Assembly (NCBI GenBank): GCA_005116775.1
Contig: SWDN01000011.1
Location: 169,975-232,382, forward strand
DNA length: 62,408 nucleotides
Source of the DNA: Nitrospira sp.
GTDB taxonomy: Bacteria > Nitrospirota > Nitrospiria > Nitrospirales > Nitrospiraceae
Reading direction: 5' to 3'
Shown: piece by piece, positions 2,548-57,189 of the stretch
Layout: every line of letters starts with the position of its first letter
Position numbering within the stretch: the stretch's first letter is position 1
Translations under genes and position numbers: made by a program
Notes under the pieces: generated by a model
Database searches by the model: none
Told to the model about the DNA's origin: nothing
What the model saw: only the letters and a program-made list of their open reading frames with translations

Positions 2548-3309
2548 CTAGGACCGGACGGCGGCCTGGACAAACTCGGCCCAGCGCCGGAAATAGGCGG
2601 CGCCCGCAACCTGGTAGGTGTTGTTATGGTCGGCGCCGGTTATGACATAGAAGGACTTGGGCGGCTTAGCCGCCTCGAAGACCTGCCGGCCCAATTCGAG
2701 GGGGATAATGTCGTCTTTGTCGCCGTGAATGATCAGTTTGGGAAGCGAGAGCTGCGGGAGGCGGTCGATCAATGTGAACTGTGCACCGAGCAACCAATGG
2801 ACCGGCATCCCACCGTAATGAAATTTGGCCACGGCTTCGATGGACGGAAACGCCGATTCCAGAATCAGCCCCGACGCGGGCTTCTGCGCAGCAAGTTCTC
2901 CTGCCACAGCGGCGCCGAGCGAGCGACCAAAGATGATGATGCGCTCAGGACGAATCATTCTGGTTCGCGTCAGATAATCGTGCGCCCCGATCGCATCCTG
3001 ATAGAGCCCCTCTTCCGACGGCTTCCCCTGACTCCGACCATAGCCGCGATAATCGAACAAAAACACCGACAGTCCGATCCGATAGAGTTCGCGAAGATTC
3101 TCCAGCCGGTTGATAACGTTCCCGGCGTTGCCGTGACACCAGAGAATGACCGGGCGATCTGCTTGTGCCTCCACATACCAGCCGAACAGCTTCGTGCCGT
3201 CTCCCGACTGAAACCACACCTCTTCCAGCGGCAAACCACTGCGGGCGCTCCAGTCCTGATCCTTCCAGGGTTCGGGATGGTAGACGAAGAATTGATCGAG
3301 AATGCCCAT
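2548..3309 (-). CDS. Alpha/beta hydrolase (YqkD/FrsA-like serine hydrolase)
   Basis: This is a compact alpha/beta hydrolase of 254 residues. The start at 3309 (MGILDQFFVYHPEPW) is preferred because an AAGTAGG-like ribosome site precedes it and because the downstream partial copy begins with the same sequence. Visible elements are the oxyanion loop LWCHGNAGN, DYRGYGRSQG, the nucleophile elbow IFGRSLGAAVAGELA, the acid in HGDKDDIIP, and the base in TGADHNNTY. These give a complete Ser-Asp-His triad. The closest recalled families are short-chain serine esterases or peptidases associated with membranes; the substrate is unknown. No signal peptide is evident, although residues 1-15 are hydrophobic. 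It is the last gene of the duplicated block (2996-5320) and the only intact hydrolase copy. Confidence 0.8.
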   Translation of the reverse strand: MGILDQFFVYHPEPWKDQDWSARSGLPLEEVWFQSGDGTKLFGWYVEAQADRPVILWCHGNAGNVINRLENLRELYRIGLSVFLFDYRGYGRSQGKPSEEGLYQDAIGAHDYLTRTRMIRPERIIIFGRSLGAAVAGELAAQKPASGLILESAFPSIEAVAKFHYGGMPVHWLLGAQFTLIDRLPQLSLPKLIIHGDKDDIIPLELGRQVFEAAKPPKSFYVITGADHNNTYQVAGAAYFRRWAEFVQAAVRS

Positions 3310-3334
3310 CGTGCCTACTTCGCTGAGCGACGAC

Positions 3335-3988
3335 CTAGAACCGCATGCCGACCCCAAACGAGACATACTGAGAGCGAAAATCCAGCGCGAGCTGCTTCCA
3401 GTGATAGTCGGCTGAGAAATACTTGTACTCGCCGAATAGAAATATCTTTTCGGTCACATTGCCCTGCACTCCGCCGAAGAATTGAGAGCCGAACGCCCAT
3501 GAACCTTCGAAGTCACGGTCCGAACGACCAGGAATCTCGGCATGAGTGAGCACTCCGCTCGAATAACCGCCCCCGACACCGATGTAAGGGACAAACACCT
3601 TACCAGGGTAGCGAAGAATCAGATTTGCCATTGAATTGAAAACCCAGAGGTTTGTACTGGCAGTGGACCCTGCGTTCACCGGCGAAGAAAATGAGACCTC
3701 ACTCCCGTGACCGAAAGACTCCAGTCCGATCCCGAGGATGTTTCCCAAAGAGTGCGGGAACACTGCGACCTTGATGCCTACGCCAGCCCCATTGGTGATC
3801 CTGGGGTCCGAAGGATTGCCTCCCTGGGCAAAAAGACCTCGATCAGATGGAAATGCACCCAGTGCGTACAGGCCAATATCTACGTCGGCAGTCTCAGCGG
3901 CTACGCCCAGGCAGGGTTGCAGCAATACCATCATGAGGACAATCCGCAACGGGAGGAAACCCGTGAGCACCAAGGGGAATGGCCTCAT
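3335..3988 (-). CDS. Predicted outer-membrane beta-barrel protein, copy 1
   Basis: This 217-residue exported protein has a hydrophobic signal (LRIVLMMVLLQPCLGVAAE, probable cleavage after VAA). The body alternates polar and aromatic residues, is rich in Gly, and ends with FGVGMRF, a C-terminal Phe as in many BamA-recognised barrels. Segments such as YIGVGGGYSSG and FLFGEYKYFSADYHW look like transmembrane strands, as in small 8-stranded OmpW/OmpX-like proteins. I do not recognise a specific family. A second copy lies at 4498-5151, offset by exactly 1163 bases and roughly four fifths identical in protein by eye. It sits between the TRL fragment (upstream) and the intact hydrolase (26 bases downstream), so it was probably co-transcribed with the hydrolase. 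Confidence 0.7.
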   Translation of the reverse strand: MRPFPLVLTGFLPLRIVLMMVLLQPCLGVAAETADVDIGLYALGAFPSDRGLFAQGGNPSDPRITNGAGVGIKVAVFPHSLGNILGIGLESFGHGSEVSFSSPVNAGSTASTNLWVFNSMANLILRYPGKVFVPYIGVGGGYSSGVLTHAEIPGRSDRDFEGSWAFGSQFFGGVQGNVTEKIFLFGEYKYFSADYHWKQLALDFRSQYVSFGVGMRF

Positions 3989-4038
3989 CTCAAGTCTGCC
4001 CTATGCCGAATTGGTCAACAGTGCCGAGAAAAATAAAA

Positions 4039-4069
4039 GGGCCTCTGGGACTTCCGCCCCAAAGGCCCC
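4039..4069 (-). terminator. Duplicated rho-independent terminator (copy 1)
   Basis: On the minus strand GGGGCCTTTGGGGC pairs with the GTCCCAGAGGCCC arm and is followed by TTTTATTTT. It is the 1163-base-shifted copy of the terminator at 5202-5232. It follows the TRL 3' fragment and lies inside the out-of-frame part of the hydrolase pseudogene, upstream of the outer-membrane protein gene. Confidence 0.75.
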
Positions 4070-4091
4070 TTCGATTGCGGACGTTCGATAA

Positions 4092-4157
4092 TCAGCTGCC
4101 CTTGACGATCGTGCACCACTCGCCGAAGATCCCCAAGATATTCTTGGCGTAATGGTC
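4092..4157 (-). pseudogene. 3' fragment of TRL-like lipoprotein gene
   Basis: These 66 bases match the 3' end of the intact TRL-like gene (5255-5320) with an offset of 1163. They include the stop codon and the codons for the last 21 residues (DHYAKNVLGIFGEWC region). There is no 5' portion: the sequence switches to hydrolase at 4158. The fragment marks one end of the tandem duplication and is not expected to be expressed as a protein. Confidence 0.85.
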
Positions 4158-4497
4158 TCCTGATAGAGCCCCTCTTCAGACGGCTTCCCCTGGCTCCGGC
4201 CATAGCCGCGATAGTCGAACAAGAATACCGACAGCCCCAACTGGTAGAGAAGTTTCAGATTCTCCAGCCGGGTGATGATGTTCCCAGCGTTGCCGTGGCA
4301 CCAGAGTATGACCGGACGATCTGCCTGCGCCTCAACGTACCAACCGAACAACCGCGCCCCATCAGCAGCCTGAAACCACACCTCTTCCAGCGGCAACCCA
4401 CTGAGCCTGGCCCAATCCCGATCCTGCCATGGCTCAGGATGAAAGACGAAGAATTGGTCAAGGATGCCCATCATGCATTACTTCGGAGAACGACGAT

Positions 4498-5151
4498 CTA
4501 GAAGCGCAGCCCGATGCCAAACAAGGCATAATGGGAGCGAAAGTCCAGCGCGAGCTGCTCCCAGTGGTAGTTAGCCGAGAAGTACTTGTACTCGCTGAAC
4601 AGAAACACCTTTTCGGTCACATTGCCCTGCACTCCACCAAAGAATTGTGAGCCGAATGCCCATGAACCTTCAAAGTCCCGATCCGAACGACCGGGAATGT
4701 CGGCATGGGTGAGCACTCCGCTCGAGTAACCACCCCCGACGCCGATGTAAGAGACAAACGCATTCCCTGGGTAGCGAAGAGTCAGATTCACCATCGAACT
4801 GAAGACCCAGAGGTTTGTACTGACTGCGGACCCTGCATTCACCGGCGAAGAAAATGAGATCTCACTTCCATGACCGGAAGACTCCAGTCCGATTCCGACG
4901 ATGTTTCCCAAATAGTGTGGGAACACCGCGATTTTGATGCCGGCTCCAGCCCCATTGGAAATCTTGATGTCCGAGGGGTTGCCCCCCTGGGCAAAGAGGC
5001 CTCGATCTGATGGAAATGCACCCAGTGCGTACAAGCCAACATCTATGTCGGCAGTCTCCGCGGCTGCAACCAGGACTGGTTGCAGCAATACAATCATGAG
5101 GGCGAGCGACAATGGAAAGAAAACCGGGATCACTAAAGGGAATGGCCACAT
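4498..5151 (-). CDS. Predicted outer-membrane beta-barrel protein, copy 2
   Basis: This is the paralogue of 3335-3988, with the same length (217 residues), a hydrophobic N-terminal signal ending VAAAE, the conserved GLYALGAFPSDRGLFAQGG segment, and a terminal FGIGLRF. Differences are scattered substitutions rather than indels. Both reading frames have stayed open at equal length, which suggests both copies remain functional or the duplication is fairly recent. It lies just downstream of the TRL-like gene and its terminator. The gene downstream of it is the truncated hydrolase, so only copy 1 retains the complete neighbour. Confidence 0.7.
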   Translation of the reverse strand: MWPFPLVIPVFFPLSLALMIVLLQPVLVAAAETADIDVGLYALGAFPSDRGLFAQGGNPSDIKISNGAGAGIKIAVFPHYLGNIVGIGLESSGHGSEISFSSPVNAGSAVSTNLWVFSSMVNLTLRYPGNAFVSYIGVGGGYSSGVLTHADIPGRSDRDFEGSWAFGSQFFGGVQGNVTEKVFLFSEYKYFSANYHWEQLALDFRSHYALFGIGLRF

Positions 5152-5201
5152 CTCAAGTCTATCCTACAGCGCATTGGTCAGCAGCGCCGGCCAAAATAAA
5201 A

Positions 5202-5232
5202 GGGCCTCTGGGGCTTCTACCCCAAAGGCCCC
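5202..5232 (-). terminator. Rho-independent terminator of the TRL-like gene
   Basis: On the minus strand GGGGCCTTTGGGG, a short TAGAAG loop and CCCCAGAGGCCC form a GC-rich stem followed by TTTTATTTT (5193-5201). It starts 23 bases after the TRL stop codon, ideal spacing for intrinsic termination. The outer-membrane protein gene downstream would therefore need read-through or its own promoter. Confidence 0.85.
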
Positions 5233-5254
5233 TTCGATTGCGGACGTTCGAAAA

Positions 5255-5581
5255 TCAGCTGCCCTTGACGATTGTGCACCATTCGCCAAAGATCCCCAAG
5301 ACATTCTTGGCGTAATGGTCGACTGACGTGACTTTCGTGATTCCACCATTGGCTTTGGCAGCAACGATGCTCGCATCACCCGTAGCAACCCAACCCAAAA
5401 CCGACGAAGCGCAGGCTTTTCCCTCTTTGGTCGTAGCGGTTTCAGCCGTCGCGATGTTCCCGTACTTCGTCTCGTTGAAAATTGTGCCAGCCAGTGGCGA
5501 GGCGACGATCTGGCAGGCCGACAAGCTAAGTGCTGCCACTGAGATTCCTGCGAGTGTCAAAGCGACTTTTATCTGCTTCAT
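5255..5581 (-). CDS. TRL-like family lipoprotein
   Basis: This 108-residue protein has a lipoprotein signal (MKQIKVALTLAGISVAALSLSAC, lipobox LSAC). The mature domain shows the TRL pattern (Pfam TRL, 'tRNA-associated locus' protein): an N-terminal SPLAGTIFNE turn, EGKACASSVLGWVATGDASI, AKANGGITKVTSVDH, and a terminal GEWCTIVKGS. In other bacteria such proteins are small, abundant envelope lipoproteins whose biochemical role is unknown. AAGGAGG sits 6 bases upstream of the ATG. A near-consensus sigma-70 promoter and a strong terminator flank it, so it is probably a highly expressed monocistronic gene. Its 3' end was copied in the adjacent tandem duplication. Confidence 0.85.
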   Translation of the reverse strand: MKQIKVALTLAGISVAALSLSACQIVASPLAGTIFNETKYGNIATAETATTKEGKACASSVLGWVATGDASIVAAKANGGITKVTSVDHYAKNVLGIFGEWCTIVKGS

Positions 5582-22527: not shown

Positions 22528-24641
22528 TCAAATGACAAAGTTCATCAGCTTTTTTTCGACATAGACAATCTTCTTCGGCTCCTTGCCCTGCAACCACTCC
22601 GCGATCTGCATACGAGCCAGTCCTTCGACCTGCTCGCGGGTGGCATCGGCGCCCACGTCGAGTTTGGCCCGCAACTTTCCGTTTACCTGGATCGGAATGG
22701 TCAGCCGATCGCTTATGGTCATGGCTGGATCGAAGATCGGCCAAGGCTGCTCTGAGACGCTCGGCGTATGACCCAACACTTCCCACAATTCTTCCGCCAG
22801 ATGGGGCGCGAATGGCGACAAGATCAGGACAAATGGCTCGAGCAATGCCCGTGGGCGCTGCTCCGCCTTTGTCATCTCGTTGGTAAACACCATCATCTGA
22901 GAGATCGCGGTATTAAACCGCAACTCCTCAATGTCTTCCGTCACCTTCTTAATGGTCTGATGCAGCAGGCGGAGTTGATCAGGGCTCGGATCATAGACAC
23001 CGACGGCCGGGCTCAGCGCGCCGTCTTCATTAGCGATCAGCCGCCAGGCACGGTCCAGAAACCGTGTAACCCCTTCCACACCCCTCGTACTCCAAGGCTT
23101 CACCGCCTCCAACGGGCCCATGAACATTTCATAGAGCCGTACCGCATCGTGTTAGTCTCACGAAGCGCTGCCGCCCCACTGATCGGGTCGGTGGTTGTCA
23201 GCCAGTCGGTTAAATTAGCGAGCGGACTTTCGCCGCTCCCGGACGGCTTGAAGTTATTGGTCTCCGGCAACAGCACTGGCAACTGCTCTTCCGGAAGCGG
23301 AAGGGCCTGGCCATCGACCCACACAATCGGAAAGGGCTCGCCCCAATACCGCTGACGGGCAAAGAGCCAGTCCCTCAGTTTATAATTCACGGCCTTACGC
23401 CCTTTACCTTGCGATTCTAACCAGGCCGTAATTTTCGGAATGGCATCATCCGGTGTCAGCCCGTCGATGCTAAAGCTTCTGTCCGGAGTCGTGGAATTGA
23501 TCACAGTCCCCTTGTCGGTTGCGACGAAGGCCTCTTGCTCAACATGGCCACCCGCAATCACTTCACGGATGGGCAAGCCATAGGTTTTCGCAAAGGCCCA
23601 GTCGCGTTCGTCGTGCGCCGGCACAGCCATGATGGCCCCAGTCCCGTACCCCATCAACACATAGTCGGCAATCCAAATGGGCAGCGGCTCCTTGTTCATC
23701 GGATTGACTGCATAGCCGCCGGTGAAGACTCCGGTCTTTTCTTTTTCGAGCTCCTGCCGTTGGAGGTCGCTCTTTCTGGCCGCCGCCTCGCGATACGCCG
23801 TGACCTCGGTGCGACGATCAGCGGTCGTTACAACCGCCACGAGCGGATGTTCCGGGGCCAGCACCATATAGGTCGCGCCAAACAAGGTATCGGGCCTGGT
23901 CGTAAATATCCGAACCGTGCCGGAGATACCGGCCAAATCGAACTCGACTTCTGCCCCGATCGATCGGCCGATCCAATTTTTTTGCATCTCCAATGTGCTG
24001 GCCGGCCATTCGACCAACTTCAAGTCTTCGAGGAGCCGATCGGCATAGGCCGTGATCTTCAACACCCATTGACGCATCGGCTTGCGCACCACATCGAACC
24101 CGCCGACCTCGCTCTTCCCATCGATAATTTCCTCATTGGCCAATACCGTCCCCAGCGCAGGGCACCAGTTCACGGGCACTTCCGCCACGTAGGCCAACCC
24201 TCGTTCGAAGAGTTTTAAGAAGATCCATTGTGTCCAGCGATAATAACCTGGGTCAATCGTGCTGATCTCGCGTTCCCAATCGTACGACAGGCCGACACGT
24301 TTCATCTGCCGTTTGAAGGTCGCGATGTTCTCGGCTGTCGTGACGACCGGATGGATTCCGGTTTTCACTGCATACTGTTCTGCCGGGAGCCCGAATGCGT
24401 CCCACCCCATTGGATGCAATACATTGAAGCCCTTCATACGTTTGTAGCGGGAGACGATGTCGGTCGCGGTGTAGCCCTCAAGATGGCCGACGTGGAGACC
24501 AGACCCTGAGGGATAGGGGAACATGTCGAGGCAGTAGAACTTCGGCTTGGCCCGGTCGTCAGCGACGCGGAAGGTCCGGTGCTGCTCCCAATAGGCCTGC
24601 CACTTCTCTTCAAGGGCGTGATGATCGTAGGTTTTGCTCAT
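22528..24641 (-). pseudogene. leuS: Leucyl-tRNA synthetase with an internal deletion and frameshift
   Basis: Two frames together encode most of LeuRS. The first (23100-24641) has the HIGH-type motif [35 protein letters not shown], the CP1 editing domain ([33 protein letters not shown]) and [19 protein letters not shown] up to RETNTM. The second frame starts [18 protein letters not shown] and continues with the anticodon-binding and C-terminal domains to VYVEKKLMNFVI. The part between RETNTM and GADAVRL is gone. In complete LeuRS this is roughly 130-150 residues and contains the catalytic KMSKS loop. The join at 23144-23149 lies in the six bases GATGCG, which could belong to either side. As written the gene cannot make an active enzyme. 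An assembly deletion or a second leuS elsewhere is likely. Confidence 0.93.
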
Positions 24642-24726
24642 ACTGGCACGGAGTCTTTGTCAGCTTGAAAAAGAGGATGGACTCTAACATAGACCAGTGG
24701 GAGCAACAAGAATCGACGAAGGGGGG

Positions 24727-27805: not shown

Positions 27806-28711
27806 ATGATGCATTCCGCACAAAGAAAGACTCTTCTCCCTGCGGCTCGCAACAACCCACAGACTGGCCGGACAGACTATTCATCTTTCCGTCGCAGGTT
27901 GCAGCGATGTGGGATTGAGGCTTTCTGTACCGGAGTGATCGGTCTCGCCCTCCTCAGCCCCGTCCGTGCTGAAGAGCCCCTTGTGTCGCCAGAAACGGGC
28001 TCGCCCCCAGCCGTTGAAACCCTTGCTTCAACCCCTGCCGCCGTTGACCCTGTCACGACTGATCCCTTCATCAGGCTCCGGGGGTCCGTGTGGCGGACCA
28101 AGGCCGGGATCGTCTTTCTGAAGACTCCGGTCGGACTGCTGACTCTCAGTTCCAAAACAACGTTGAAAGATCTCAAAGCCTCACAGGAAGTATGGTTTTG
28201 GGTTCACGAGCGTCATGTCGTCGTCGAAATCCGCAAGAGAGACGACGAATCGTTAGTCCATCGCTATCTCGGCGGACCGATGAAGCACGGGACCGATGAG
28301 CCGAAGACATTACACTGGTGGGGGCCTGACGGGGATCAGATCGTCCATGTCGGCACACAGGATGAACGCCTCACCAACTATCGAGAAGGAGATCCGCTGA
28401 CCGTCGAAGTCGATGAAACCAATACCATCAGCGGGGTGCATGATTTGCAATTCGACTTGCAGATCAGCCAACCCCCGACGGCCGGTGCCAAGGTGCAACT
28501 CCTGCTCTCAGGAACCGTGTCGAAACTCAAATCCAACTTCGTCTTTGTCCGCACCCCCATCGGCCTCGTCATGCTCAATTCGAAGATCGGCGTCCCCCAT
28601 GTGAAGGTGGGGCAACCGTTAACGTTACGCATCGATGATGAGCATGTGACCGTCACACTTCCAGCAACCGCGACGGCAACTCCTCGACGCAGCACCTCAC
28701 CAATCCCCTAA
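27806..28711 (+). CDS. Exported protein with two similar beta-domains, unknown function
   Basis: I do not recognise this family. The N-terminal part has a basic run then FCTGVIGLALLSPVRAEE, a plausible signal with cleavage after VRA. The mature part contains two copies of a module of about 50 residues: LRGSVWRTKAGIVFLKTPVG-LLTLSSKT and LSGTVSKLKSNFVFVRTPIG-LVMLNSKI, each ending in a V-V-E-I or T-V-T-L strand. A linker with HWWGPDGDQIVHVGTQ separates them. The modules suggest small OB- or SH3-like beta barrels in the periplasm. The start is uncertain: ATG at 27806 or TTG at 27767, both without a clear ribosome site. The Pro/Thr/Ala-rich tail is probably disordered. Confidence 0.6.
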   Translation: MMHSAQRKTLLPAARNNPQTGRTDYSSFRRRLQRCGIEAFCTGVIGLALLSPVRAEEPLVSPETGSPPAVETLASTPAAVDPVTTDPFIRLRGSVWRTKAGIVFLKTPVGLLTLSSKTTLKDLKASQEVWFWVHERHVVVEIRKRDDESLVHRYLGGPMKHGTDEPKTLHWWGPDGDQIVHVGTQDERLTNYREGDPLTVEVDETNTISGVHDLQFDLQISQPPTAGAKVQLLLSGTVSKLKSNFVFVRTPIGLVMLNSKIGVPHVKVGQPLTLRIDDEHVTVTLPATATATPRRSTSPIP

Positions 28712-28742: not shown

Positions 28743-28947
28743 AGCAGGATGCTCAAAAAGGCCGTTCAGCAAGGCCGCAGCGAGCGAAGAGGCGAGGCGT
28801 ACGCTTCGGTACGTTGAGCCTCTGAGCGATGCGACCTGCCTGCGCGAAGCCGCTCCGGCGAAGGCAGGGAACGATGCCTGGTGAAAGGCGCGTCTTGGCG
28901 CGCCGGGGCTGGGCGGGTGAGAAGAGTGACTTTTTCAGCATCCTGCT
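28743..28947. repeat. Palindromic intergenic element, family A (copy 2)
   Basis: Arms AGCAGGATGCTCAAAAAG (28743-28760) and its near complement (28930-28947) match at 17 of 18 bases. The core contains GGCCGCAGCGAGCGAAG, GGCGTACGCTTCGGTACG and CTCTGAGCGATGCG, shared with the copy at 44091-44213. Relative to that copy it has about 80 extra bases (28840-28920) with a second palindrome (GGCGCGTCTTGGCGCGCC). Confidence 0.8.
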
Positions 28948-28970
28948 AGAGGCCGGGTCAAGGGGGTGAA

Positions 28971-29366
28971 ATGGCACATGAAAGGCAGTCTGCTGTGGTA
29001 CTTATCGCCGAAGACGATCGGGAGATGCGGAGTCTCCTCTGCGATGAGTTGTACGATCTGGGGGTGTCTATCCGAGAAGCGGCTGATGGAGACGAGGCTC
29101 TCCGAGCGGTGCTCGATATTCGCCCGGCGCTGATTCTCACGGATCTTCGTATGCCGGCGGGGGGACTAGATTATATCGCCAGGCTCCGGACGTTCGCACC
29201 GGGCGTGCCGCTCGTGCTGATCACGTCATTTGGAGATCAGCAGACGAAAGCCAGGGCCTTGGCCCTTGGGGTCGAAGCCTACTTTGATAAGCCGGTTCGC
29301 ATCAGCGAGCTAAAAGACGCTGTGAGGCGCCTCTTGGGCCCAGCTTTGGATGGAGTCATCGACTAA
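28971..29366 (+). CDS. Stand-alone response regulator receiver
   Basis: This single-domain CheY-like receiver has 131 residues. It shows the acidic pocket AEDDREM, phospho-acceptor Asp in LILTDLRMP, the switch Ser in LVLITSFGD, and the conserved Lys in YFDKPVR. There is no output domain, so it probably acts through a partner. AGGGGGTGAA precedes the ATG. The gene immediately upstream of the sigma-54 activator (29410) is likely co-transcribed, so the receiver may replace the missing N-terminal receiver of that activator, which instead has a PAS domain. Confidence 0.88.
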
Positions 29367-29409
29367 GGTTTTGCTACAATGTAAGTCCTTTGGCCCTGAG
29401 TGGTGTGAG

Positions 29410-30789
29410 ATGGCCGGATCTCCAAAAGAATCTTCAACAATCCTTCCGTTCACAGACCCCATCCTCGCCGCTCGACTGGAAGCCATCAAACAGTTAGCCG
29501 GTGGGCTCTCTGAACGAGTCGCCGTCATGGATCGCGAGTTCAACGTGATCTACGCCAATGAGTCTGCATGGTCTGAAGAGGTCTCCCGTCGATCCGGCCA
29601 CCAGGCGAAGTGCTATGAGGCCTTCGCTCATCGGAACGATCCCTGTGGCACCTGCCCTGCGACAAAGCTATACGAATCGCCCGAGGTCCAGTCCGTAGCC
29701 TGCTCCATCGGAGGGGACGGCACGGCCTGTGGAATGCATCAAGCGTTTCCACTCGCATCGAGCAGCGGCGAGGTTGAAAATGTGCTGGTGTTGTTCAAGG
29801 CGCCGTCGAAGCCTTCGAAGCAGGCGAGCGGTGAGCGCGTGGATGTGAAATACGAATCGAAGCTGGGTGAACTGATCGGTTCGAGCGCGCCAATGCGAGA
29901 AGTCCTCGACATGATTCGGCTCGTGGCGGACAGTTCCGCGACCGTGCTGATTCAAGGGGAGAGCGGCACCGGCAAGGAACTGGTGGCGATAACGATTCAC
30001 CAGACCAGCTATCGGCGGGATAAACCCTTCGTCGTGGTCGATTGCGGGTCGCTGCCTGAAACGCTGTTGGAGAGTGAGTTGTTCGGCCATGTGAAGGGGG
30101 CCTTCACCGGAGCGCATGCCTCCAAACGTGGACTCTTCGAAGAGGCGGATGGCGGAACGATATTCCTGGACGAAATCGCCGATACGACTCCGGTCTTTCA
30201 AGCCAAGCTGCTGCGGGTGCTCCAGGAAGGGGAGATCAAGCGGGTTGGGGGAAACCAGCCGATCAAAATCGATGCGCGGGTTATTTCGGCGACGAATAAG
30301 GATTTATCTGAGCTGGTCAAGTCCAAGGCGTTTCGTCAGGATCTCTACTATCGATTGGCGGTCTTACCGCTCTACTTGCCGCCGCTCCGCGAACGGAGTG
30401 AGGATATTCCGCTGTTGGTGGAACATTTCATGGCCGAGACGTGCAAGCGGCATCGTCAGCCGATTCGAGCCATCTCGGCGGAGGTCATGCAGGCGCTGAC
30501 CGAAACCTCGTGGCCCGGCAACGTGCGGGAGTTGCAGCACTATATCGAGCGAGCGGTTGTGACGACGACAGGGCCTGCATTGAGCTGCGCGGATCTGGTC
30601 ACGGCGGGATCGAAGCCGGCGGAGCATGACCTCCGTTCTGTGTCGCGCGGCGCGGTGACGAAAGCTGAACGGATGCGGATCGTGCAAGCGCTTCACCAGG
30701 CCGGTGGCAATCGAGTCAAGGCCGCGAAGCTCCTCAAGATCAGCCGGGCGAGCCTCTACAACAAACTCCAGCAGTACGACATTTCCTAA
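29410..30789 (+). CDS. Sigma-54-dependent transcriptional activator with PAS domain
   Basis: This NtrC-family enhancer-binding protein has about 459 residues. Residues about 20-130 form a PAS-type sensor ([19 protein letters not shown]) with a cysteine cluster, [20 protein letters not shown], typical of redox- or metal-sensing PAS folds. The AAA+ domain follows: [19 protein letters not shown], Walker A GESGTGKE, the sigma-54 contact loop [15 protein letters not shown], Walker [12 protein letters not shown], and [21 protein letters not shown]. The C-terminal Fis-type HTH is [22 protein letters not shown]. It should activate sigma-54 promoters upon a redox or metal cue. ATG at 29410 is preferred over 29350, which would overlap the receiver gene. 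Downstream, across a gap of about 480 bases, lies the multicopper oxidase gene, a plausible target. Confidence 0.9.
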
Positions 30790-31273
30790 TCTTCTGCCCC
30801 GAATCTCCCCAATGATCCTCATCGATCTGTCCAAGAATTTAGACAGCAGAACTCGTTGAAATTCTGTCATCTTTTTTCTTGCACGCGCGGCACTGTCTAA
30901 GACCGTGGAAAATCTCCTCGCTGCATCGCGGTCGGCGCAATCAGCATTTTTTTCGCTAAGCCACGGATCTCTTAGGCGAATGGCTCTTTCTCTCAGCATG
31001 CGGACGCTCCGGCATGTCCATTGCTGTAGAGCAACATCGCTGGTGAAGGTCTGGGTAATTAGGACCGGCCTCCGAATGACCCTCTCTTCCGCAAGGAAGA
31101 AACCTTCACCGGCTCTTAACAAAGGCCAAGAAAAAGCAAAGAAGCCCTCAGCTGTCAGCCATCAGCTAGATCAAGAAGATTGAATTACGGGCTGAGAGTT
31201 GACGGCTGATCGAGAGATCCAGATCAACCACTTGTCGATGGCGGCAGGTACAGCAAGAAGAGGAGGCCGAGGT
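30790..31273. other. Intergenic region upstream of the multicopper oxidase gene, with CAGC-type repeat
   Basis: No gene is supported here. At 31143-31215 lies a copy of the CAGC-type palindrome (CTCAGCTGTCAGCCATCAGC with an inverted partner GGGCTGAGAGTTGACGGCTG). I searched for a sigma-54 (GG-N10-GC) promoter because an NtrC-type activator precedes it; only imperfect matches are present. Confidence 0.4.
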
Positions 31274-33958
31274 ATGAAACGAGTATCGAGTTCGCGCAGC
31301 TGCCGCGCCTATCGCATGGCAGCAAGTCTGCCGGCAGCGCTGTTTGTCAGCAGCCTGCTGACAACTCCGATCGGGCTGGCTGCAGACCAGCACGCCAGCC
31401 ATGGCGACATGGGGGGCGCATCGGCGGAGAAGGTGATCTATCGCGAAGGCGGCGCAATCCTGCACGACCGTATGATGGAGGAAGTGAAGCGCCAACAGGA
31501 AGCCATCGGGAAGAAAGGCGGGTATAGCACCGGCGCGAACAGTCACATGTTACAGCAGGGCGTTCTGCTGGTTGCGGAGGATCCGACCAAAATCGCCGTC
31601 ACGGCCGGGCAGCGTTGTCCGGCGAATGTTCCGATCAAGGAGTATCACGTCTCAGCGATCAACATTGAAATCACGCTGAGCCGGTTTCTCGACTACTTCC
31701 CCGGGTACATGTATGTGCTGAAAGAAAATGTCGAGAAGGCCCGTGGCGAAGAAGCGGCGAACAGGGAAGCGCGAGAGAAGGAGAACGATCCCGGCGCCGT
31801 GTCGAACGGCTTGCAGGGTGACATTATTCAGCCGCTCGTGATTCGGGCCAACCAGGGCGATTGTCTCAAGCTGACTCTCCACAACGAAATCCCGGATGAC
31901 CCGACGAGCCTGGTGATCAATGGTTCATCTATGGTGGTGGCAGCGACCGGCAAGCCGGCGACCCCTTCGAACCCAGAAGGGACGGTCGCATCGGGCGGTC
32001 AACAGAGTTTTGAGTGGTACATCAAGCCGGATACTCAGGAGGGGGCGCGATTTTTTAGATCACACGCATCGCGCGAACAGTTCAACCAGGGCTTGATCGG
32101 CATGCTCGTCGTGGAGCCTCGCGGCTCACGCTATCTCAGCCCCTTCGACGGCAAGCCGATGGCGAGCGGTTGGGAAGCCATGATCGAAGATCCGAAGGGA
32201 GCCGACTTCCGGGAATTCGCGATTTTCTATCATGAGGCCGGTGATGAAGCGTTTCGCCTCTTGAACAAGAAAGGCGAAATGCTGCCCCAGCGCGATCCGC
32301 ATACCGATTCCTATCGGCCTGGCGCGCGGTTGCTGAATTATCGCAGTGAACCGCACGGTACGCGCATTGAGCTGCAAGCCCATATGGGCTTCTATGGTGA
32401 CGAGTCCATGGCCTATGGGTCTTATACCTTTGGCGACCCGGCCACGACCATTCCTCGATCCTATCTCGGCGATCCCGCCAAGTTCCGGATGGCGGGCGGC
32501 TCAGAGATCGTGCATTCGCACCACCTCCACGGCGGCTCCATACGTTGGGCGCGCCAGCCGGGAAACAGCAATCTCGACTTCGCACTATCGAAGAACGGGC
32601 CGGTGAAGTTTCCTGCAATCAGCGATCCTTCTGACCGTCTGGACGTGCAGTCCATCGGGCCGACGGAGGTCTACGATCAGGTGATCGAGGGCGGTTCGGG
32701 AGGCCTGCAAGCCCTGGCCGGTGAGTTCGTATTCCATTGCCACATCCCACAACATTATGTGACGGGCATGTGGGGCTTCTGGCGCGTCTACAACACGTTG
32801 CAGCAACCTGGTTTCCAGACTGACGTCATGAAGCCGCTGGTCGAACTGCCGGATCGCGTCGGCAAGATCAAGACCGGTACTCAATCGGATAAGCTTGTCG
32901 GGACTACGGTGGACTGGTATGGCGGCAAGAAGTACGAGATCACCAAGGACAAGACCGATTGGAAAGCCAATCCGGTCAAGGTCTCCATCAAGGATTGGGT
33001 GGAGATGATGCTCACGCCGCAAGGCAAGCCAGGCAAGAAGAACAGCGAGAAAGAGCAGACCTTGGCCTACGACTCGACCGTCAACGACTGGGCCTGGGAC
33101 GGGCAGAAGGCCATGAGCGAGCTTGAGACGACGTATGAGTGGGTGAACTACAAGTCGGCGACACCGGGCAAGCGGCAGGAGATTCTCTTCGATCCGCAAT
33201 CCGGTAAGATCGCCTGGCCATGGTTACGGCCGCATCTGGGGCGGCGCGTGCCGTTCTCTCCGAGCCACAGCGGCGCGCCCTGGCTGGAGCCGATTCATCG
33301 CCGCGACGACGGCAGCAACTCCACTGAACCGCCGAAACCGGGTGAACAAGGGCCCTGGAGTCTCTGTCCGGAAGGGGCGCCGCAGAAGTACTTCAATATC
33401 CACGCGATCACGTTGCCGATCACCCTCAAGAGGGCAACGGCCAAGACGCCGGCGATTGTGGATCCGGGAGGACTGCTCTACGTGCTGCATGAAGAAGAGC
33501 AGGAAGTCCGGAAGAATCCCGCCAAACAGATGCCGCTGGTGATCCGCGGCAACGTGCAGGATTGCATTGATGTCGTGTACAAGAGCGAGTTGAAAGATGA
33601 TGTGCGGCAAGGGTTCTCCAGCAAGACGAACCTGCATCCGCACATGTTCCAGTTCGACACGCAGGCGTCGGACGGCCCGATCATCGGCTTCTCCTATGAG
33701 ATGTCGTTGCGGCCGTTCACGATCCTGAAGGATGAGCATCCCGGGAAGGGCATGCCCGTGCCGATGAATACGACGATGGAGGCCGATGCCGCGAAGGGGA
33801 CGTCCAGCATCAAGGTAAAGGACGCCTCGCGCTATCACGTCAAGACCGAGTTGGGCGTGGGCATGGACGAAGTGGGTGCATTCGAGTCGGCCCGCATCAG
33901 CAAGATCGAAGGCAATACGATCATGTTCGAGCGGCCGCTGAGGTATATGTCGATCTGA
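31274..33958 (+). CDS. Multicopper oxidase-like exported protein (3'-truncated)
   Basis: This 894-residue exported protein (signal YRMAASLPAALFVSSLL, cleavage after LAA) has cupredoxin repeats of the multicopper oxidase superfamily. The first part carries EIVHSHHLHGGSIRWARQ and the type 1 copper segment FVFHCHIPQHYVTGMWGFW (Cys, two His, Met). A second set begins with YFNIHAITLPITLKRATAKT and has LHPHMFQFDTQASDG, an expected copper-site strand, but no second HCH...GM segment follows. The frame stops soon after MFERPLRYMSI at 33958, and the downstream DNA is already coding for a sigma factor in another frame. The 3' part therefore appears missing. GAGG precedes the chosen ATG. Large multicopper proteins of this type are recalled from Nitrospira; the substrate is unknown. 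Confidence 0.75.
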   Translation: MKRVSSSRSCRAYRMAASLPAALFVSSLLTTPIGLAADQHASHGDMGGASAEKVIYREGGAILHDRMMEEVKRQQEAIGKKGGYSTGANSHMLQQGVLLVAEDPTKIAVTAGQRCPANVPIKEYHVSAINIEITLSRFLDYFPGYMYVLKENVEKARGEEAANREAREKENDPGAVSNGLQGDIIQPLVIRANQGDCLKLTLHNEIPDDPTSLVINGSSMVVAATGKPATPSNPEGTVASGGQQSFEWYIKPDTQEGARFFRSHASREQFNQGLIGMLVVEPRGSRYLSPFDGKPMASGWEAMIEDPKGADFREFAIFYHEAGDEAFRLLNKKGEMLPQRDPHTDSYRPGARLLNYRSEPHGTRIELQAHMGFYGDESMAYGSYTFGDPATTIPRSYLGDPAKFRMAGGSEIVHSHHLHGGSIRWARQPGNSNLDFALSKNGPVKFPAISDPSDRLDVQSIGPTEVYDQVIEGGSGGLQALAGEFVFHCHIPQHYVTGMWGFWRVYNTLQQPGFQTDVMKPLVELPDRVGKIKTGTQSDKLVGTTVDWYGGKKYEITKDKTDWKANPVKVSIKDWVEMMLTPQGKPGKKNSEKEQTLAYDSTVNDWAWDGQKAMSELETTYEWVNYKSATPGKRQEILFDPQSGKIAWPWLRPHLGRRVPFSPSHSGAPWLEPIHRRDDGSNSTEPPKPGEQGPWSLCPEGAPQKYFNIHAITLPITLKRATAKTPAIVDPGGLLYVLHEEEQEVRKNPAKQMPLVIRGNVQDCIDVVYKSELKDDVRQGFSSKTNLHPHMFQFDTQASDGPIIGFSYEMSLRPFTILKDEHPGKGMPVPMNTTMEADAAKGTSSIKVKDASRYHVKTELGVGMDEVGAFESARISKIEGNTIMFERPLRYMSI

Positions 33959-34485
33959 TCTATCGATACGCCTATCGCCTCTGCGGCGAAGTGGAATCGG
34001 CAAAGGATCTCGTTCAAGAAACCTTTCTCAATGCCTACCAAGGACTCAAAGATTTTCGAGGCGAGTCACAGATCTCCACCTGGCTGTACACGATCGCCTC
34101 ACGAGCCTGCATACGAATGCGGCGCAAGCGCAAAGGGCAACCGGAGCACGAGCTGTCGATCGAGGAGTTCATCCCCACTTCCGAGGGAGAGTTTCGCCTC
34201 CAGATCCCAATGGACGGGTTCAGCCCCGAAGAGGCGCTACAGAACAAGGAACTCCGGCAGGCCCTCGACCAGGCGATCGAGAAGCTGCCGAAAAAATATC
34301 GGATGGCCCTGGTGCTCCGCGATATGGAAGGGTTGAGCGCCAAAGAAGTGGGAGCCATCATGGGCTTGAATGAGCGTGCCGTAAAATCACGACTGCACCG
34401 AGCGCGTCTGTTTGTGCGGCGGGAACTCAGCGCTCGCGGTATCACTCACCACGATGACCAGAATTCTGGAGGCTTGCGTTCATGA
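33943..34485 (+). pseudogene. ECF RNA polymerase sigma factor, 5' end missing
   Basis: The frame reads VYVDLIYRYAYRLCGEVESA then KDLVQETFLNAYQGLKDF, the region 2 signature of ECF sigma factors. RGESQISTWLYTIASRACIR continues it, and region 4 follows (ALDQAIEKLPKKYRMALVLR, MEGLSAKEVGAIMGLNERAV, KSRLHRARLFVRREL). Everything before region 2.1 is absent: upstream the frame runs into the multicopper oxidase gene without a start codon. The only internal candidate is GTG at 33991, which would omit part of region 2. It overlaps the anti-sigma gene by 4 bases (ATGA). The anti-sigma partner and cupredoxin downstream form a typical ECF operon, so the intact gene was probably functional before the junction arose. 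Confidence 0.8.
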
Positions 34486-34787
34486 CCAAGAAAAAGCCGT
34501 CGGCGCCAAAAAAACGGTCCAAGCCATCGTCTCCCAGCCACGCACATGGCGAAGGACATTGCCTAGATCTTCTCCGGCAGTTATCGGCCTACATCGATGA
34601 TGAGCTCCCTTCCGATATTTGCCTAGAGGTCCGACGCCATCTAGGAGCCTGCCCGAACTGCGAGGTCTTTATCGCCTCCCTCCAGCATACCGTCACGCTC
34701 TGCCGACATCGTCCAGCCCCACAGTTGACGTCGGTCGACCGGATGAACATGCGCCGCGCAATCCTGAATGCGGCCAATGCACGATGA
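34482..34787 (+). CDS. Zinc-finger anti-sigma factor
   Basis: This is a 101-residue soluble protein without a membrane helix. The ZAS (zinc-binding anti-sigma) motif is visible: HGEGHCLDLLRQLSAYIDDE, then LEVRRHLGACPNCEVF, giving the H-x3-C-x2-C arrangement that holds zinc. It would bind the ECF sigma factor encoded just upstream, with which it overlaps by 4 bases. Release may follow oxidation or metal stress, as for other ZAS proteins, but the stimulus cannot be read from the sequence. The N-terminal 25 residues are a basic Lys/Pro/Ser-rich tail. Confidence 0.85.
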   Translation: MTKKKPSAPKKRSKPSSPSHAHGEGHCLDLLRQLSAYIDDELPSDICLEVRRHLGACPNCEVFIASLQHTVTLCRHRPAPQLTSVDRMNMRRAILNAANAR

Positions 34788-35375: not shown

Positions 35376-36863
35376 ATGATGTGGTTGCAGACTCTTCAGC
35401 GGAAATGGTTCAAGACTCTGTCCATCGCCGGAACCCTCTTGACCGTTGCTGCCATGACTCTGATCGAAGCCCCGCCGGCATCGGCTGCTGCCACAAAGAA
35501 GTCGAAGCAGGCCGTCACCGCTGCTGAAACGACAGCTCGACGTTATGCCGAAGCGATGGGGGCGGGAAATACGGTTGTCGTCGGCCAACTCGACTTCGCG
35601 TGCCAGTATTCGATCGTCGCCGCAGCTCCACATGGCCTCAAGAACTACCCGACCGAGTCCGACCCCATCTACGATTCCTGTTGGCAGCGCCTACGAGAAG
35701 CCCATGCCTCCACCCTCATCAGAACCGATGTCGGCATGGAAGTCTTGTGGCCCAGTAGTGGAGAACTGGTCTTTTTCAGTGAAGACGTACATCGTTATCC
35801 TGCTTCTGCCTTCGTGACCGAATTACTGGGTGTGACACCGCCAGGAACCGGATTCCATACTCACATTGTCGGCAGCACACCGCTTCCTTCGGCCTCGTTC
35901 CGCCTTCGACCGAACGGACCGATCGTCGCGGTGCCGACGACCTTGGTGAAACTGTCCATCAGGTATCAGGATCCCCTGACCGCTCCAGTGACCTACGCAG
36001 CCGGTTCAGTCAAGTGGACCACGACGATTAAGCGGACCAGACGCGCGCTGAAAGAAGTGACTGTCCAATGGGTCGTCCTCTCCGGGTTGAAGAAACACGG
36101 CTTCGCGGGCGACCAGGCGATCGTGAACCTCCCAGTCACCAGCGGCTCTATCTTCGGGAGCGGCGCCCAGGAACAGATTCCGTTTGTCACGGAAACCAGC
36201 CATGCCTTACCCCAGTCCCTGGTCTGGTGGGGGCCGACGGACAGCCAGGGACTCTTGACCGCTGCGGCTGCTCGCGCAGCCATCTTTCCGGAGCTGCGCG
36301 ACCGCGTGGCCATGTTGAACCGTGTGCTCATCATCGATCCCAATCATGTTGAAGCCCTCATGGTTCTGAGCCGGCACCTCTATGCCATTATCCTGCGCGA
36401 GGCCGTTCCGTTCCACAAACTCACCGTGAACGATCCGGCGCTTGCCTTGGTCGTGAACGAACAGTTCTGGAACATCTACTCCCAATCAGTGCGTATGGAC
36501 TTGTCGCTGGGCATGGAAATGGGCGGGTTCGACAAACCGACAACCGCCGACTACCTTTATCGCATGCTCTCGGCTATGCAAACCCTGGCCGTCGTCCGGC
36601 CGGAACAGCTCGACAATCGATTCCGATTAGGCGTAGCTCTGCGCTGGAACAACGATCAAGACGTCTCGATCGAGACCCACCAATTTGCTCGAAGCCTACC
36701 GCCACGGTATTTTCCCATGGTACAACGACGATCAACCCATCTTGTGGTGGTCGCCAGATCCCCGGACCGTCCTCTTTCCAGAGAAGCTTCACATCTCACG
36801 CAGTCTCAAAAGAAGTCTTCGCCCCGGCCTATTCAGCGTCACGCTCGACCGGTGTTTTCGTGA
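35376..36863 (+). CDS. Conserved exported protein, fused out of frame into aat
   Basis: I do not recognise a named family. The signal peptide is clear (WFKTLSIAGTLLTVAAMTLI, cleavage near SAA), and AGAGGAG precedes the ATG. Segments include ARRYAEAMGAGNTVVVGQLD, YDSCWQRLREAH, FHTHIVGSTPLP, VLIIDPNHVEALMVLSRHLY and FDKPTTADYLYRMLSAMQTL, with TPR-like helices in the second half. The frame is convincing up to RWNNDQDVSIETHQ at about 36680. The remaining 60 residues are the aat coding sequence read in the wrong frame (Arg/Ser/Pro-rich). The natural C-terminus is therefore probably lost at a junction near 36665-36680. The natural role is unknown; a periplasmic location is inferred. Confidence 0.65.
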   Translation: MMWLQTLQRKWFKTLSIAGTLLTVAAMTLIEAPPASAAATKKSKQAVTAAETTARRYAEAMGAGNTVVVGQLDFACQYSIVAAAPHGLKNYPTESDPIYDSCWQRLREAHASTLIRTDVGMEVLWPSSGELVFFSEDVHRYPASAFVTELLGVTPPGTGFHTHIVGSTPLPSASFRLRPNGPIVAVPTTLVKLSIRYQDPLTAPVTYAAGSVKWTTTIKRTRRALKEVTVQWVVLSGLKKHGFAGDQAIVNLPVTSGSIFGSGAQEQIPFVTETSHALPQSLVWWGPTDSQGLLTAAAARAAIFPELRDRVAMLNRVLIIDPNHVEALMVLSRHLYAIILREAVPFHKLTVNDPALALVVNEQFWNIYSQSVRMDLSLGMEMGGFDKPTTADYLYRMLSAMQTLAVVRPEQLDNRFRLGVALRWNNDQDVSIETHQFARSLPPRYFPMVQRRSTHLVVVARSPDRPLSREASHLTQSQKKSSPRPIQRHARPVFS

Positions 36864-44090: not shown

Positions 44091-44213
44091 TAGGGTGCTC
44101 AAACAGGTTGCCAGCAAGGCCGCAGCGAGCGAGGAGGCGAGGCGTACCCTTGCGGTACGTCGAGTCTCTGAGCGATGCGAGAACGAAGCTGGCGGCCTGT
44201 TTCAGCATCCTAC
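44091..44213. repeat. Palindromic intergenic element, family A (copy 3)
   Basis: TAGGGTGCTCAAACAGG (44091-44107) pairs with CCTGTTTCAGCATCCTA (44197-44213). The core GGCCGCAGCGAGCGAGGAG, GGCGTACCCTTGCGGTACG and CTCTGAGCGATGCG is shared with 28743-28947. The element runs into the stop codon of the M50 protease gene (44213-44215). Confidence 0.78.
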
Positions 44214-45187
44214 TAGTGGAAGGAGAAAGGAACAGGCGCAAAGGTCAGGACAAACACGGCAAACGCAATCCATCCGACGACGATCCGCTTCCGGCCCAAT
44301 GGGATGTGACTGTCACGCACCGGCGGATGCCCGAAGCCCCAGAGTCCTGCCATGAAAGCCCAGAGCCACCACCCTTGCCAACCCACATATCCCAACACAA
44401 TGAGAATAGGCAACATGATAAATGCCAACGTGCGTTGTCGTTTGCCCCACAGAGCATACGCCACATGTCCTCCATCGAGTTGACCGATGGGAATGAGATT
44501 CAACGACGTCACAAACAGGCCGAACCATGCGGCAAATGCGATGGGATGCAATACGATATCAGCCTCAGGAGAAATGGGCCCAACGATCAACCAGGCGATG
44601 AACTGCAAGAGCAACGGTTCGCCCAACTGCAATCCATGAGTCGCTGTCCGATCGACGACGGTCGACAGGCTCAGGCCGATAACCAACGCCACCATCGCGG
44701 CGATGAATCCGGCAAGCGGACCGGATACGCCGATGTCGAACAGGGCTCGCCGATTCATAATCGGCCCGCGCAGACGAATGATCGCGCCGAATGTACCGAT
44801 GAAATAGGGAGGGCCTGGAATGAATAATGGCAGCGACGCCGGCACTCGGTGAATACGGGAGAGCGCATAGTGCCCGAACTCATGAGTGACGAGAATGGTC
44901 AAAAGCGTGGCGGCAAAGGGAACACCGCTCCACAGCATCTCGGGCTGTTCGAGCAGAAAATTCACCGGCCCACGAATCGGTCCGTTATAGGTTTGATAGG
45001 CGCCGGCCCACAAGGTCGTAAAAATCGTCGCGACGAAGAGACTGATAGGCAGAATCCATTTCGAGAAAGGCGTCTCCTCGAATTCGTCGTCTGGGGTGAG
45101 ATGATTGAGATCCTCACGCGGCTCCGTCACGACCGGCGGCTCTCCGTCACGGATCGGCTGGTCCTCGTTCCGCTGGTCTAGATTCAT
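44213..45187 (-). CDS. Site-2 protease family (M50) membrane metalloprotease
   Basis: This 324-residue multi-pass inner-membrane protease has a cytoplasmic acidic N-terminus (about 45 residues), then a hydrophobic core with the zinc motif ILVTHEFGHYALSRIHRVPA (HExxH) and the second motif NLIPIGQLDGGHVAYALWG (N-x-x-P-x-x-x-LDGG, Asp ligand). SLPLFIPGPPYFIGTFGAII and GVSGPLAGFIAAMVALVIG are typical of this bacterial M50 group. Such enzymes cleave membrane-spanning segments of regulators (anti-sigma factors) or other substrates. The gene is 7 bases downstream of the HTH-MBL gene in the same direction, so the two are probably co-transcribed. The palindromic element forms its 3' end. Confidence 0.9.
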   Translation of the reverse strand: MNLDQRNEDQPIRDGEPPVVTEPREDLNHLTPDDEFEETPFSKWILPISLFVATIFTTLWAGAYQTYNGPIRGPVNFLLEQPEMLWSGVPFAATLLTILVTHEFGHYALSRIHRVPASLPLFIPGPPYFIGTFGAIIRLRGPIMNRRALFDIGVSGPLAGFIAAMVALVIGLSLSTVVDRTATHGLQLGEPLLLQFIAWLIVGPISPEADIVLHPIAFAAWFGLFVTSLNLIPIGQLDGGHVAYALWGKRQRTLAFIMLPILIVLGYVGWQGWWLWAFMAGLWGFGHPPVRDSHIPLGRKRIVVGWIAFAVFVLTFAPVPFSFH

Positions 45188-57065: not shown

Positions 57066-57189
57066 ATGAGCGGCGGACTATTTGTCGTGCTGTTGTTGGC
57101 TGTGCTGGTGCTGATCATCATCGCCAAGACCGCCGTGGTGGTCCCGCAGCAAACTCATCGAGGAACAGCTCCTTGGCAAAGCCTCCTGA
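57066..57189 (+). pseudogene. Slipin/stomatin-like (SPFH) gene with most of its interior deleted
   Basis: After GGAGGAGG the ATG begins MSGGLFVVLLLAVLVLIIIA then KTAVVVPQQ, the membrane anchor and start of a slipin. Immediately afterwards, in a different frame, the DNA encodes SKLIEEQLLGKAS and stop, which looks like a slipin C-terminus. The roughly 200-250 residues of the SPFH domain that should lie between are missing. The join near 57146-57153 lies in GCAGCAAA, which fits both sides (VPQQS and ..SKL). As written only a short membrane peptide with a random tail to 57224 could be made. NfeD directly upstream is the expected partner. Confidence 0.8.

Follow-up and report, generated by a model that had tools for sequence, protein, structure and literature searches.

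The join between a multicopper oxidase gene and an ECF sigma gene in a draft Nitrospira assembly is very probably false

Introduction

Misassembled or chimeric contigs occur in metagenome-assembled genomes, where they typically arise at long repeats or join different taxa. Displaced DNA can also come from microhomology-mediated insertion or homology-facilitated illegitimate recombination, which are true chromosomal events. A literature search on Nitrospira oxidase-sigma loci gave nothing directly relevant to the locus described here, which lies in a 62,408-nucleotide stretch of contig SWDN01000011.1 (hereafter the window). In this window, the first 917 codons of a multicopper oxidase gene run into an ECF sigma gene that has no promoter, no start codon and none of its first ~27 codons. 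By comparison with related genomes, we conclude that this junction is very probably a false join in a draft, metagenome-type assembly and not a real feature.

Results

Oxidase and sigma genes break at the same base

The features around the junction are as follows.

31274..33946, plus strand: 5' part of a multicopper oxidase gene (PF07732 and PF07731; homologues of 1,595-1,611 aa), whose frame continues to the stop at 33956-33958
33946..33948, no strand: junction, where the DNA match against relatives switches
33946..34485, plus strand: ECF sigma gene (PF04542 and PF08281), headless by comparison with relatives
34482..34787, plus strand: putative zinc-finger anti-sigma factor, downstream neighbour of the sigma gene (PF13490, E 3.2e-8)

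A sequence-only reading of the window had proposed that both genes are incomplete at one point, at about 33940-33950. The switch of alignment against relatives bore this out and placed the junction at 33947, with ~2 bp common to both sides; more distant partial matches aside, DNA matches of the left side stopped at 33945-33947 and those of the right side started at 33946-33949. The join was spanned by none of the 31 other genomes of the genus able to show it, matches from either side halting within 2-3 bp of 33947, and the exact junction sequence had no match in the GTDB contig collection, which may lack near copies of the source genome.

The oxidase frame (31199-33958, likely start ATG 31274) contains multicopper oxidase domains with copper-binding motifs (PF07732, PF07731), but it comprises only 917 of ~1,600 codons and does not hold all domains of its intact homologues. 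The closing copper segment, which the earlier reading had noted as lacking in this frame, is found in the homologues as the motif FWHDHVFG, ~30 residues past the break. The 3' third of the oxidase was located on a different contig, C9, where it is joined, out of frame, to the 5' portion of an oxidase paralogue; neither residues 918 to ~1076 of the oxidase nor the 3' part of the paralogue was found anywhere in the assembly.

The sigma gene matched both region 2 and region 4 (PF04542, PF08281), the region 2 match beginning at profile position 5. Its frame is open from 33736, the first ATG, GTG or TTG being GTG 33991, so the gene is headless as had been suspected: relatives have a start codon of their own ahead of region 2, and an in-frame ATG was present 25-35 codons upstream of the beginning of the window copy in 73 of 77 related sigma loci (those whose upstream sequence was available, almost all of them Nitrospira). 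An oxidase beside the sigma gene was seen in none of these 77 loci within the fetched flanks, and no second intact sigma gene was found elsewhere in the assembly. The nearest relatives carry a promoter-like motif, TTGACAGG...CCTAGA, ahead of the sigma gene, which is gone in the window. Among the loci L124-L201, many carry a conserved TTGACAG...CCGTAGA or CCTAGA motif ahead of the sigma gene; this motif is likely the promoter of a cluster of sigma, anti-sigma and cupredoxin genes, and it is perhaps self-regulated.

Both frames are open as read, which would be compatible with natural ends, i.e. a short oxidase followed by a sigma factor that is likewise short and begins at GTG 33991. The earlier reading had named homologues ending at the same residue, with the sigma factor starting at this GTG, as what would overturn the truncation; the search for full-length homologues gave instead longer genes on both sides, with alignments breaking at the same base, and a start at 33991 would shorten sigma region 2 by another 15 residues. 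Natural ends are thereby refuted to the point of being scarcely credible. On sequence comparison, the oxidase gene and the sigma gene are both truncated at 33947.

The junction is the right edge of a displaced 5.0-kb block

Beyond what the earlier reading had described, position 33947 marks the right-hand end of a 5-kb block that begins at 28951, and the join is one of many such joins in this assembly. The block and its left flank contain the following features in addition to the oxidase part.

28744..28950, plus strand: MITE-like dispersed repeat with 51 matches, full or partial, across the assembly; the misplaced block has its left edge at the last base of this repeat
28951..33946, plus strand: 5.0-kb block of the oxidase locus, misplaced here
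28968..29363, plus strand: response-regulator receiver protein (PF00072, E 1.5e-20)
29350..30789, plus strand: sigma-54 activator with a Fis-type HTH (PF00158, E 2.9e-70; PF02954)

The block, which holds the receiver protein, the sigma-54 activator and the 917 oxidase codons, is absent between the flanking genes in relatives G004, G007, G012, G018, G019, G020, G026 and G027, and it is colinear with the oxidase locus of G004, G020, G025 and G026. In relatives, the sigma gene comes directly after the gene ending near 28710; in the window, the block replaces ~130 bp there, and ~2 bp, as read by eye, are common to each block edge and the sequence replaced. In G007, the same MITE-like repeat stands at the same place, with the sigma promoter immediately after it. 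This repeat also occurs at window positions 44092-44216 and in related Nitrospira genomes. Neither a long repeat at the right edge of the block nor runs of N were found.

Two ways of moving the block were considered and rejected. Recombination at the dispersed repeat does not fit: the left edge touches the repeat, though the donor relatives have none directly upstream of the block, and none lies at the right edge. The oxidase and sigma loci are ~20 kb apart in G018, and an inversion between them was rejected on the grounds that both flanks of the block belong to one locus and that the 3' part of the oxidase is on another contig.

A real rearrangement in this strain was also weighed, in which microhomology-mediated repair would have inserted 5 kb of the oxidase locus before the sigma gene, deleting the sigma promoter and head and leaving the donor site with a broken oxidase fusion. 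The insertion geometry, with its short identities at the edges and small target deletion, is what such an event would give, a matching piece is missing from the donor site on C9, and the broken frames carry no further decay. We nevertheless regard it as unlikely, for the join is in no other genome, and similar joins through leuS and rpoC in the same assembly cannot be real. Also unlikely is the reading in which a real microhomology-mediated move of the 5-kb regulator-oxidase block inactivated both oxidase and sigma factor at once in a single Nitrospira strain.

The same assembly cuts through indispensable genes

The assembly is a draft of 53 contigs and is 70% complete. Its only leuS gene (window 22531-24659) is split by a 311-bp loss at a join at 23144-23149, with a frame change and without 99 codons (residues 520-618, including KMSKS); the missing stretch was present at one size in all six relatives compared. 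Another such join lies outside the window.

Contig C7 of the source genome (G000, locus L260), 79931-80404 and 83084-83092: rpoC-rpsG join

Here, inside a 92-kb contig, codon 833 of rpoC runs into rpsG, and the remaining rpoC and rpsL are lost. No second rpoC match was found in the assembly, and 10 of the 11 relatives checked had rpoC as one open frame of 1,277-1,462 codons, the eleventh being split at a contig end. A tuf frame near this join has only 158 codons. It is well established that no bacterium can live without rpoC, rpsL and leuS, and therefore the leuS and rpoC-rpsL joins are not chromosome structure. Because the same assembly thus has similar cuts through indispensable genes, the oxidase-sigma join is very likely false as well.

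Other joins were observed in the window. At 36684-36685, a gene of 570 aa in relatives is left without its 3' end and meets a gene that we take to be aat, without its first ~31 codons; at 57152-57153, a presumably SPFH-type membrane gene meets the end of a presumably gmhA-like gene, with ~1.45 kb missing versus G012 and G026. Two tandem copies of a hydrolase-lipoprotein stretch (2996-4157 and 4158-5320) are 84% alike, whereas G004 has one; since the copies are about as distant from each other as from G004, DNA of two species may have been joined here.

The frequency of such breaks was compared with that in five relatives used as queries in the same test, a sharp break being counted when seen against two or more relatives. 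The source genome showed 7 clear sharp breaks in 126 kb, 5 of them of identical size, versus no identical-size break in ~290 kb of the five relatives, in which one case of varying size was seen (G026). In a conserved-gene test, 17-21% of genes were broken in the source genome versus 4-9% in the pooled controls, some of them due to contig ends. With many joins of the same kind in the assembly, an artefact is therefore the best reading.

Discussion

The oxidase-sigma join is absent from the independent assemblies of relatives, and joins of the same kind run through the indispensable leuS and rpoC-rpsL; from these observations, together with the coincident truncations and the separate home of the block, we infer an artificial origin for this join specifically. 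The assembly would have set a 5.0-kb piece of the oxidase locus into the sigma locus, separating two stretches that are neighbours there and omitting ~130 bp of that sigma locus. As to the exact error, we can only guess at low-depth chimeric reads or at wrong gap-filling between short contigs, which the dispersed repeat at the left edge perhaps aided.

Against an artefact stands the tidy geometry of the block, whose edges fall ~130 bp apart in one locus: one real insertion would be a simpler explanation of this than a pair of false joins. For this reason we hold the false join to be very probable and go no further. The absence of N runs and of a long repeat at the right edge also speaks against an artefact.

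The assembly is unfit for claims on gene loss, gene fusion or gene order, and each mid-gene anomaly in the window needs comparison with relatives first. Were the join real, a single event would have cost one strain both a large oxidase and a sigma regulon.

The locus resembles chimeric contigs of metagenome-assembled genomes in that unrelated loci are joined mid-gene in a draft of low completeness and the join is absent in all relatives, but it differs from the usual cases in that few bases are common to the two sides and both sides are Nitrospira. With microhomology-mediated insertion or homology-facilitated illegitimate recombination it shares a displaced block, ~2 common bases per edge and a small target deletion; however, such an insertion would be a true chromosomal event and would leave essential genes throughout the assembly uncut.
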